From: Cellulosimicrobium sp. ES-005
Lineage (GTDB): Bacteria > Actinomycetota > Actinomycetes > Actinomycetales > Cellulomonadaceae
Direction of reading: 5' to 3'
Assembly: GCF_040448685.1 (NCBI RefSeq)
Contig: NZ_CP159290.1
Coordinates: 1,674,001-1,738,000 of the forward strand
Length of the DNA: 64,000 nt
The notes beneath the pieces were generated by a model that saw only the letters and a list, made by a program, of their open reading frames with translations, was not told the origin of the DNA and ran no database searches. The position numbers and the translations under genes are program-made. This document shows positions 11,555 to 14,727 of the stretch, in pieces (position 1 is the stretch's first letter; the number at the start of each line of letters is the position of its first letter).

Positions 11555-11905
11555 ATGAGCGAGACCACCGACATTGCCACGCACGGCGTCAACCTGACCG
11601 ACGGGGCCGCGGACAAGGTCCGCACCCTCCTCGAGCAGGAGGGTCGCGACGACCTGCGCCTGCGCGTCGCGGTGCAGCCCGGCGGCTGCTCCGGCCTGAT
11701 CTACCAGCTCTACTTCGACGAGCGCGTGCTCGACGGCGACGCGCTGCGCGACTACGACGGCGTCGAGGTCGTGGTCGACAAGATGAGCGTCCCGTACCTC
11801 GAGGGCGCGACGATCGACTTCGCGGACACGATCGAGAAGCAGGGCTTCACGATCGACAACCCCAACGCGGGCAGCGCCTGCGCCTGCGGCGGCTCCTTCA
11901 GCTGA
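11555..11905 (+). CDS. erpA: A-type iron-sulfur cluster carrier/insertion protein
   Basis: A 116-residue HesB/IscA-like protein that carries Fe-S clusters to apo-enzymes. The three conserved cysteines are visible: Cys45 in QPGGCSGLIY and Cys109/Cys111 in SACACGGSF. Length and motif spacing match ErpA. A purine-rich GGAGACGAG lies upstream of the ATG. It sits opposite the cysteine-desulfurase-like/TusA pair, with the heme and Fe-S-rich respiratory genes following, and the Rieske protein and NadA encoded nearby are plausible clients. The upstream region has a SigR/SigH-type promoter match, so induction by thiol-oxidative stress is a reasonable hypothesis. Confidence 0.93.
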   Translation: MSETTDIATHGVNLTDGAADKVRTLLEQEGRDDLRLRVAVQPGGCSGLIYQLYFDERVLDGDALRDYDGVEVVVDKMSVPYLEGATIDFADTIEKQGFTIDNPNAGSACACGGSFS

Positions 11906-12009: not shown

Positions 12010-12264
12010 TCAGGCGCCGAGCTCGACCGTGATCGCCCAGGCGCCCTCGTCGTGGTCGTCGCGCGCGAGCGGCTCGTCGCCGACGACCGTGTGCCCGCGC
12101 ATCCGTGCCCAGGCCGGGACGTCGAGGCGCGCGGCCGGATCGGTCGACCACACCGTCAGGCGCGTGCCCGGGTCCCGGTCGCGCGCCGCCGCGGCGAGCC
12201 GGATCACCGGCAGCGGGCAGCGCAGACCGCGTGCGTCGACCACGTCGGGAGCGTCGCCCGTCAC
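12010..12264 (-). CDS. TusA/SirA-family sulfur carrier
   Basis: An 84-residue TusA-like protein, a small sulfur-transfer carrier that accepts persulfide sulfur on a conserved cysteine. The signature DARGLRCPLPVIRLA (CPxP, Cys about residue 16) is intact. Its GTG start overlaps the stop of the upstream cysteine-desulfurase-like gene by 4 nt (GTGA), so the two are translationally coupled and probably functional partners. The sulfur acceptor further on (tRNA thiolation, cofactor synthesis or another pathway) cannot be determined here. Confidence 0.88.
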   Translation of the reverse strand: MTGDAPDVVDARGLRCPLPVIRLAAAARDRDPGTRLTVWSTDPAARLDVPAWARMRGHTVVGDEPLARDDHDEGAWAITVELGA

Positions 12265-13406
12265 AGGCCCTGCACCCCCAGCGTCGCTCGCACGCGCGCG
12301 ACCGCCCCGGGCAGCGCGTCGAGCAGCCGGTCGACGTCCGCCGCGCTCGTCGACCGGTCGAGCGCGATGCGCACGTTCCCGTGCGTGAGCACGCCCATCG
12401 CGGCCAGGACGTGCGACGGCTCGAGGGAGCTCGACGTGCACGCGGACCCCGACCCGACGGCGACACCCTCGCGGTCGAGGTCGGTGAGCAGGGCCTCGCC
12501 GTCCACGTAGAGGAACGAGAACGTCGCCACGTGCGGCAGGCGGTCGGCCGGGTCGCCGACCACCTCGACGTCGGGGATCTCGGCGACGCGCGCCCGGACC
12601 CGGTCGACGAGCGCACGGCGGCGCGCGTCCTCGGCCTCCCGGTCCGCCAGCACGGCCTGGAGCGCGACGGCGGCCGCGAACGCCGCGGGCACGGACACCC
12701 CTCCGGGTGCCCACGGGTCGGGGTCCTCCGGGAACGGGCTGCGCCGTCGGACACGGGAGCGGACCGCGAGCACCCCGACCCCGGGACCTCCGCCCCAGTC
12801 GGCGGGGTCGGCGGCGAGAGCGTCCCACGACGCGGGGACCACGTCGTGGCCGACGCTCGCCCCCGCGTCGACGAGGAGCGGGACCCCGGCCGCGCGCGCG
12901 GCGTCGTGCACCGCCACGACGGGCTGGCGCGTGCCCACCTCGCCGTTGGCGAGCTGGAGCGCGGCGAGCGCGACCCCCGGGCGCGCGACGGCGTCGGACA
13001 TCGCGGCCGCGTCGACCCGGCCTGTGCGGTCCACGTCGACGACCTCGCGCTCGAGCCCGCCGTGCTCGGCGGCGTGCAGCACGGCGGCACGCTCGACGGC
13101 GCCGACGACGACCCGTCGGCCGAGGCGTGCGCGTGCGCCGGACAGGGCGGCGACGCCGGTGTGCAACGACGCCGTGTGGGAGGGCGTGAAGTGCACCTCC
13201 TCCGTCCGCACGCCGAGCGCGGCACCGACGGCCTCGCGTGCGCCGTCGAGCAGCGCGGCGGCACGACGACCCTCCGCGTGCAGGCGGCGGGGGTCGGCCC
13301 AGCCGTCGTCGAGCGCACGGTCGAAGGCCTCGCGCGCGAGGGGGTGCCAGGGCGCGCGCCCGCCGTTGTCGAGCCGGGCCCGGCGGACGGGGGTGGTGTG
13401 TGTCAC
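12261..13406 (-). CDS. Cysteine desulfurase-like class V aminotransferase-fold protein lacking canonical PLP-site residues
   Basis: The 381-residue protein aligns over its length with IscS/NifS-type cysteine desulfurases and keeps the active-site loop GSGSACTSSSLEPSHVL, with Cys323 at the persulfide-forming position. However, the PLP lysine motif (normally SxHKxxGPxG) reads PADWGGGPGV, placing Asp203 where Lys should be. The PLP-stacking His is Arg106 (AVERAAVL), and the usual Asp-Ala-x-Gln reads DAGAS, keeping Asp180 but losing the Gln. It may be a persulfide carrier or scaffold rather than a classical desulfurase, which is inference. GTG 13406 has AGGAGG 4 nt upstream. It overlaps the TusA-like gene by 4 nt. 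Confidence 0.82.
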   Translation of the reverse strand: MTHTTPVRRARLDNGGRAPWHPLAREAFDRALDDGWADPRRLHAEGRRAAALLDGAREAVGAALGVRTEEVHFTPSHTASLHTGVAALSGARARLGRRVVVGAVERAAVLHAAEHGGLEREVVDVDRTGRVDAAAMSDAVARPGVALAALQLANGEVGTRQPVVAVHDAARAAGVPLLVDAGASVGHDVVPASWDALAADPADWGGGPGVGVLAVRSRVRRRSPFPEDPDPWAPGGVSVPAAFAAAVALQAVLADREAEDARRRALVDRVRARVAEIPDVEVVGDPADRLPHVATFSFLYVDGEALLTDLDREGVAVGSGSACTSSSLEPSHVLAAMGVLTHGNVRIALDRSTSAADVDRLLDALPGAVARVRATLGVQGL

Positions 13407-13806
13407 ATGGCCTCCTGGGCGCTGGCGGTCGGGCCGCGTGGGCGCGGCGCGGGCGGGCGAGCCGGTCGACCGCGCCGGGGTGGCGCGTCGCGGGTCTCCC
13501 GCGGGGCGCCGGATCGTTGCGCTCGCGCGGACCGCGACGGGGCGTCGGTGCGAGCCCGGACGCTCCACCGGCACGGTACCGCCCTGCCGGGCGGAGCGTC
13601 GGTGTGGCAAGGATCTGACAGACCTGGCGCGGGTGTGGTGAACCCGCCCTGACCGGCGGCGACGTGTGCCGCATCTCGCCCGTCCAGCGCGCGTTCCGGG
13701 GCACGAAGGGCGGAATCCCGCGCTAGGCTTCGTGTGTCGAGGACGAAGGTCCTGTGCTGGGCTCGTAAAGACGGGTTCGGGCAGGACGTGACGTGAAAGG
13801 CCCCCC
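13407..13806. other. 400-bp divergent intergenic region between the desulfurase-like gene and ctaC
   Basis: No protein-coding gene is supported here. On the + strand TAGGCT at 13724-13729 is a good -10 candidate for ctaC, giving a leader of about 70 nt ending in GAAAGG before the TTG start. On the - strand TACCGT, about 170 nt upstream of the desulfurase-like gene, could be its -10. The leftward leader is GC-rich and could fold, but I recognise no known riboswitch class. Confidence 0.5.
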
Positions 13807-14727
13807 TTGCACTCGCAACCCCCTAGCCGCACACGGCGCACCATCCTGCGGGCGACGGCCCTCGCCGTCGCCGTCGCTGCGGTGGCGTCCGGCTGCGCCA
13901 GCGACACGGTCCAGCGCGGGTTCCTGCCCGGTTACGAGGACGGGGAGGTGACCAACCAGACCGCCCGGATCACGTCGCTGTGGACCGGCTCGTGGATCGC
14001 CGCCCTCATCGTCGGCGTCATCACGTGGGGCCTCATGCTGTGGTGCGTCGCGGCGTACCGCAAGCGCAAGGACGACCACCGGCTCCCGGTCCAGACGCGG
14101 TACCACCTGCCGCTCGAGATCATGTACACGGCCGTGCCGATCATCATGGTCCTCGTCCTGTTCTTCTACACGGACCGCGACATGTCCGCGATCGTGGACA
14201 AGGACGTCGAGTCGGACATGACCGTCCAGGTCATCGGCAAGCAGTGGAGCTGGGACTTCAACTACGTGGACGAGGACGTCTACGAGACCGGCCAGCACCT
14301 CGCCGACGTCGGCGGCACCATGACCGTGGACGCGGAGATCGACGGCGCGCCCGGCACGTCGGAGGCGCTGCCCACGCTGTACCTGCCGGCGGGGGAGAGC
14401 ATCCGCTTCGTCCTGGACTCGCGCGACGTGATCCACTCGTTCTGGATCCCGGCGTTCCTCTACAAGCTCGACATGATCCCCCACCGCACCAACGAGTTCG
14501 TGGTCACCCCGCAGCGCGAGGGCGTCTACGCCGGCAAGTGCGCCGAGCTCTGCGGCGAGCACCACTCCGGGATGCTGTTCAACGTCGAGATCGTCGACCG
14601 CGCCGAGTTCGACGCGCAGATGGAGGCGCTCCGCGAGAAGGGGCAGGAGGGCCAGATCCCGGTCGAGGGATTCAGCCGCCTCCAGGACCCGAACCCCGTC
14701 CCCGCTAGCACGGAGGGTGAGCACTGA
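13807..14727 (+). CDS. ctaC: Cytochrome c oxidase subunit II
   Basis: A 306-residue CuA-bearing subunit of the aa3-type oxidase, accepting electrons from the cytochrome bc1-cc complex. It has a lipoprotein-type signal peptide ([10 protein letters not shown], Cys30), two membrane helices around residues 60-80 and 105-125, and the extracytoplasmic cupredoxin domain with [10 protein letters not shown] and the CuA ligand cluster [12 protein letters not shown]. The start is TTG 13807, with GAAAGG about 8 nt upstream. The stop overlaps the ctaD ATG by one base. The ctaC-ctaD-ctaF order is the standard actinobacterial operon. Confidence 0.96.

Follow-up and report, generated by a model that had tools for sequence, protein, structure and literature searches.

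The locus and its protein

On the minus strand of the window, the 64,000-nucleotide stretch of Cellulosimicrobium sp. ES-005 DNA analyzed here, lies a gene for a Lys-less IscS/NifS-type protein that we refer to as a pseudo-cysteine desulfurase (12261..13406; GTG start, 381 aa and a TGA stop). It is followed on the same strand by a gene for an 84-aa TusA-like sulfur carrier (12010..12264) with a PF01206 match (3.8e-17, 62.3 bits vs a cut-off of 28.6) and a CPxP Cys in its CPLP motif (RCPLP). The likely GTG start of TusA (12264-12262) overlaps the TGA stop of the desulfurase-like gene as GTGA (12264-12261), and the translational coupling to a TusA-like carrier proposed in the initial annotation is thus real as a sequence feature. 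An intergenic region (13407..13806 in the ORF map) separates the pseudo-desulfurase from a divergent plus-strand gene (13807..14727, start codon provisional) for cytochrome c oxidase subunit II, which we take to be ctaC. A convergent plus-strand neighbor (11555..11905) encodes an ErpA/HesB-type Fe-S carrier (NF010147, 120.7 bits vs a cut-off of 117). The window genome (4.86 Mb, one contig) also encodes a 41% identical IscS with the motif SGHKLGGP, and a SufS-like protein (FSAHKMLGP) that adjoins the one NifU_N protein that was found. The ordinary Lys motif therefore does occur in other proteins of this genome. Like ctaC, the names SufS and SufU are our presumed assignments.

The 381-aa protein matched Aminotran_5 (1.5e-31 in a profile search) and missed the NCBIfam equivalog cut-offs for NifS (194.8 vs 530.75 bits) and IscS (115.6 vs 643.2 bits). 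Its predicted fold is that of an IscS-like type I desulfurase, with a single-chain AF2 model at pLDDT 90.6 and M. tuberculosis IscS as the nearest solved fold. Values of pLDDT below 50 were limited to residues 1-5 and the Cys loop at 322-330, which we take as a sign that the long loop with the catalytic Cys (SGSACTSSSLEPS) is mobile. All residues named in the initial annotation were present: Arg106, Ala183, Asp203 (ADWGGGPG) and Cys323 (SGSACTSSS). A sequencing or frame error was ruled out because 15 of the 16 other genomes of the genus that were searched had the same four residues; in the 16th (G014) only the canonical paralogue matched.

Active-site residues

We compared residues across 199 proteins covering both the Lys and the Cys sites, with identical proteins merged; 75 had the PLP Lys and 124 did not. 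All codons given here are on the minus strand. The PLP-Lys position is Asp203 in the window protein (GAC, 12798..12800). It was Lys in the 75 Lys-bearing proteins, and the Lys-less ones had 93 Asp, 17 Ser, 5 Ala, 5 Thr, 2 Gly, 1 Gln and 1 Glu. The His that stacks on the PLP ring is replaced by Arg106 (CGT, 13089..13091), a position with His in 75/75 Lys-bearing and Arg in 100/124 Lys-less proteins. Arg106 accompanied Asp203 in all 93 proteins with that Asp, and His106 was paired with Ser, Ala, Gly or Gln at 203. At position 200, presumably part of the PLP-phosphate site by analogy with the IscS structure, the window protein has Asp (12807..12809). With the window row excluded, the Lys-less set had Asp in 102/123 and Asn in 10/123, and Ser was found in all 75 Lys-bearing proteins. 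Gly77, His106, Ser200 and Lys203 were each present in 75/75 Lys-bearing relatives, and the stretch 76-78 was variable among Lys-less members. The initial annotation had also counted Ala183 (GCG, 12858..12860), at the Gln position of DAxQ, as a PLP-site loss. The substitution is there, but it is not diagnostic since 19/75 Lys-bearing relatives share the Ala.

Other parts of the site were retained. The catalytic-loop Cys323 (TGC, 12438..12440) was conserved in 124/124 Lys-less and 75/75 Lys-bearing proteins. Asp180, the Asp to the pyridine N1, and Asn154 were likewise invariant in the 124 Lys-less proteins, and 26 alignment columns were at least 99% conserved in this set. Arg346 (12369..12371) was present in 123/123 Lys-less proteins (window row excluded) and 75/75 Lys-bearing ones, and we take it to correspond to Arg354 of E. 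coli IscS. Arg354 is described as binding the substrate carboxylate (PMC9978102).

The normal desulfurase reaction requires PLP on a Lys. The window protein has a single Cys and lacks Lys altogether. It therefore cannot form the usual PLP internal aldimine, and a migrated PLP Lys was ruled out for the same reason. In the Lys-less set no alignment column had Lys in more than 6.5% of members, and the core was without any Lys in 89/124. As read from these residues, nothing remains of the covalent cofactor site and little of the phosphate site; the Cys loop and substrate-side Arg are retained. The earlier proposal of PLP-site losses with the catalytic Cys kept was therefore borne out, and that the window protein is not a normal PLP enzyme stands as a claim about sequence.

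Relation to characterized IscS proteins

The best PDB sequence match of the window protein was Archaeoglobus fulgidus IscS (4.2e-43; PDB 4eb5, 4eb7 and 4hvk, and 4r5f for the D199K mutant). Both have the IscS fold, the loop Cys and an Asp in place of the PLP Lys. This Lys-to-Asp protein is reported to be without desulfurase activity (PMC7585200) and its Cys321 to ligate the IscU cluster (PMC7585200, PMC9769115). By alignment, the archaeal protein keeps the stacking His and the Ser at 200, whereas the window protein has neither, and it has Leu at the position of the Arg346 that is invariant in the actinobacterial set. It also works with an IscU partner. No IscU-type gene lies alongside the pseudo-desulfurase, and the only NifU_N protein found is encoded elsewhere, beside the SufS-like gene. 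The actinobacterial Lys loss sits inside a family with Lys-keeping outer members and so looks independent of that in A. fulgidus; the two are apparently of separate origin, on a tree that excluded A. fulgidus itself. Methanosarcina acetivorans IscS1, an archaeal protein encoded with IscU1 and likened to ours by description only, is described as lacking the essential Lys (PMC7585200).

The window protein differs from the type I desulfurases of M. tuberculosis (4isy) and E. coli (1p3w) in having no Lys, no stacking His and an altered phosphate site, and we file it outside the cysteine desulfurases. It has in common with the E. coli IscS-TusA relay (3lvj) a type I desulfurase fold encoded beside a CPxP TusA. 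In that complex, TusA receives sulfur from the loop Cys of IscS, and the tip of the Cys loop lies ~4 A from TusA Cys19 (PMC2854127). By analogy with IscS, the window protein would form a dimer and present a docking face for TusA. E. coli IscS makes its persulfide itself, whereas the window protein would have lost the normal route to one.

Loss of the Lys alone is not proof that PLP is lost, since very low activity is said to remain in E. coli IscS K206A (PMC9978102) and, according to a figure legend in PMC9769115, PLP is present in the structure of the Lys-less A. fulgidus protein, which keeps the His and the Ser at 200. The Lys-less proteins could on this basis still be desulfurases that bind PLP without a Schiff base and use another group for the proton transfers, and their retained Asp180, Arg346 and Cys323 are in keeping with this. 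However, many or most members also carry substitutions at the stacking His, at the Ser of the phosphate site and at Gly/Thr 77-78, and the A. fulgidus protein was reported inactive. Non-covalent PLP in the Lys-less proteins seems unlikely, and we give continued desulfurase activity very little credence; from the residues lost, we infer that both PLP and desulfurase activity are absent.

Archaea are known to have Lys-less IscS proteins for which a role other than desulfurase has been proposed (PMC7585200). For actinobacteria, the open-licence literature yielded no paper on Lys-less desulfurases, an absence that carries little weight. A bacterial, order-wide and TusA-linked Lys-less set was not met there.

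Distribution and phylogeny

Orthologues were told from the IscS paralogue by a score gap, in a search that scored part of the candidates in each genome and may have missed small fragments. Within the host's GTDB order, 75 of 297 sampled genomes had a separable orthologue, at 76 loci (one genome had two). No orthologue could be separated from the paralogue in the other 222/297, and the gene is therefore dispensable there. The initial annotation had suggested aligning homologues from the same order to see whether the Lys is missing across a clade, and it was: the Lys was absent in 74/74 readable orthologue-bearing genomes. In the 75th the locus (L225) was cut by the contig end and was excluded from the residue counts, and the protein of another locus, L192, stops before the Cys. 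In a class-level sample, 195/394 genomes matched at 1e-55, order members included, and the Lys was kept in 45/47 genomes read outside the order. Among the 80 named loci, the best 80 of 380 relatives, 33 had the Lys and 47 did not. Isolated Lys losses outside the order were seen at L179 (Gln) and L238 (Ala), both with TusA kept.

We built a maximum-likelihood tree of 139 representatives, the query and four IscS rows after removing 13 PLP-site columns; it was of the 'quick' type and several inner branches are weak. Lys loss mapped to three changes, on the stem of 90 rows (SH-aLRT 90) and on two single rows, which indicates one ancestral loss in the host's order and two isolated ones. His106 was kept at L062-L064 and L066-L068 together with Ser or Ala at 203, and the change away from His106 was required twice on the tree. 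The Lys was likely lost first and the His after.

The covariation of residues 203 and 106 raises the possibility of a repurposed pocket, in which a putative Arg106-Asp203 pair replaces the PLP ring, Asp180, Asn154 and Arg346 bind a new ligand, and the protein, encoded beside ctaC, senses or regulates the sulfur or respiratory state. The strict pairing of Arg106 with Asp203, the invariance of the three putative ligand-binding residues and the near-universal divergence from ctaC (within 800 nt at 119/123 Lys-less loci) are in its favor. The Asp203-Arg106 covariation falls mostly on one branch of the tree, however, and so is little independent evidence. Divergence from ctaC was equally common in Lys-bearing relatives (74/75 loci); it therefore predates the Lys loss, and it supports the orthology of Lys-bearing and Lys-less loci. 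We consider a repurposed pocket of this kind improbable.

The neighboring TusA gene

Among loci with more than 300 nt downstream, TusA lay 3' of the gene in 75/75 Lys-bearing and 98/123 Lys-less cases, and the CPxP was present in 75/75 and 97/98 of these TusA proteins, respectively. In the window genome, the neighboring TusA was the only PF01206 match found. Desulfurase and TusA were joined in one frame at eight loci, seven Lys-bearing and one Lys-less (L066). The Lys-bearing fusions (L234, L166, L168, L171, L172, L174 and L178) come from one Streptomyces-like genus and account for every locus that we read from it. L171 is interrupted by an in-frame stop, one of two found in 200 family ORFs (the other is in L224), so its fused frame is less sure. 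Of our group handles, we take f37 and g112 to be Streptomyces-like and family f9 to be Brachybacterium-like, all by guess.

TusA was lost on about nine branches, all within the Lys-less clade (P = 0.02 for this placement by branch length alone, a naive figure). Such confinement fits a reduced sulfur flow through the pair. We scanned 36 chosen genomes for PF01206, covering 22 of the 25 TusA-less loci and 14 others, and found a match in 30. The six in which no TusA domain was found (G248, G105, G077, G290, G300 and G133, all of family f9) kept Cys323. The remaining scanned genomes with TusA-less loci had a PF01206 match elsewhere in the genome. In eight genomes (G203, G214, G147, G091, G237, G061, G025 and G258), TusA occurred only inside an open frame of 837-909 codons elsewhere. 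The tip of the Cys loop (S326, L328) was altered where TusA was lost, with Phe328 in 13/25 TusA-less proteins. Most TusA-less proteins come from f9, and relatedness may explain this change.

These patterns bear on the initial suggestion of a sulfur relay or scaffold acting with TusA. Adjacency, CPxP conservation, the fusions and the single TusA of the window genome agree with it and make sulfur relay to TusA plausible in the window species. Such a relay cannot be the full explanation. The repeated losses of TusA and the TusA-free genomes that keep the Cys show that the clade does not need TusA, and relay to TusA as the sole role was rejected. Because the Cys stays fixed in genomes without TusA, it should have some additional role.

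Selection

We estimated constraint as the median pairwise dN/dS (Nei-Gojobori, dS 0.05-1.2). Lys-less proteins had values of 0.18 in Cellulosimicrobium and 0.245 in Isoptericola/Promicromonospora, and family f9 had 0.23 with TusA and 0.24 without. Lys-bearing comparisons gave 0.12 in Kribbella and 0.20 in a Microbispora-like group, and canonical IscS of the host genus gave 0.11. The Lys-less protein is clearly constrained, at a level similar to that of the Microbispora-like group and somewhat below that of canonical IscS or the Kribbella protein. The slightly raised values relative to most Lys-bearing comparisons are as some relaxation would give.

The raised dN/dS, the 222/297 genomes of the order without a separable orthologue and the repeated TusA losses within the Lys-less clade could together mean that function has been lost and the protein is slowly disappearing. 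We regard such decay as highly improbable: dN/dS is still 0.18-0.25, and Cys323, Asp180 and Asn154 have stayed invariant, along with the 26 conserved columns, over a Lys-less part of the tree of ~38 substitutions per site.

Fe-S carrier neighbors

A convergent ErpA/HesB gene lay within 1.2 kb at 86/117 Lys-less vs 2/74 Lys-bearing loci. This association bears on the possibility that the Lys-less protein generates no sulfur and serves as a cluster ligand or scaffold like A. fulgidus IscS, with Cys323 ligating the Fe-S cluster or metal of a partner (SufU or ErpA/HesB). The same Lys-to-Asp change with the Cys kept and the cluster ligation by Cys321 in A. fulgidus are precedents, and a ligand role would account for retention of the Cys after TusA loss. 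However, the ErpA neighbor is convergent and not co-transcribed, and its nearness may merely follow lineage. The sole NifU_N protein of the window genome adjoins the SufS-like gene and not this locus, and the Leu of A. fulgidus IscS stands against an invariant Arg346 here. As a general account we judge cluster ligation unlikely, although less so than a repurposed pocket; for the role of the Cys in TusA-less genomes, the A. fulgidus model is the best candidate by analogy.

Proposed function

From the losses, retained residues, synteny, selection and TusA pattern, all read from sequence, we tentatively favor, at slightly under an even chance, a pseudo-cysteine-desulfurase that forms no PLP aldimine and is most likely a sulfur-handling adaptor with a Cys323 relay to TusA. 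The PLP Lys would have been lost in an ancestor within the host's order. Most of the phosphate site would have gone in its descendants, along with the stacking His in the majority of lines, and purifying selection would have maintained the IscS-like fold and mobile Cys loop. Another protein, such as the Lys-bearing IscS or SufS of the same genome, would generate a persulfide; Cys323 would accept it and hand it on, or present it, to the TusA encoded on the same transcript. In lineages without TusA, the Cys would need a different acceptor or would have to ligate a cluster or metal. For TusA-bearing species, a persulfide relay or docking platform with IscS or SufS as donor is the most likely reading; we infer the relay, its donor and its acceptor from the arrangement described above. 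The more specific version, a cofactor-free platform dedicated to persulfide, with sulfur moving through the sole Cys to TusA or another acceptor and an Arg-Asp pair filling the PLP pocket, is possible and rather doubtful.

The Lys-less protein is thus probably a sulfur-handling protein and not the enzyme implied by its name. Automatic naming probably labels such proteins cysteine desulfurases, even though no readable genome that we examined in the order has the defining residue. Lys-less desulfurase relatives and Lys-bearing orthologues at the same locus form a large natural set, in which one can ask directly what elements of a desulfurase persist for passing on sulfur after the chemistry has been lost.

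Outlying loci

Two genomes held diverged Lys-less copies. L224 (very diverged, with a branch length of 2.5, in a 2.5 Mb genome) kept the Cys, lay beside ctaC and contained the second of the in-frame stops noted above. L222 and L223 were two copies in one small genome (G175), neither with ctaC in the stretch examined; L222 had a Cys-rich loop (VGCGCTCGRH) and an adjoining TusA without CPxP. The proteins of L072 (Sphaerisporangium cinnabarinum) and L125 (Streptomyces sp. SID13031) grouped with those of Cellulosimicrobium and Kribbella, and the names of these two genomes may therefore be wrong.
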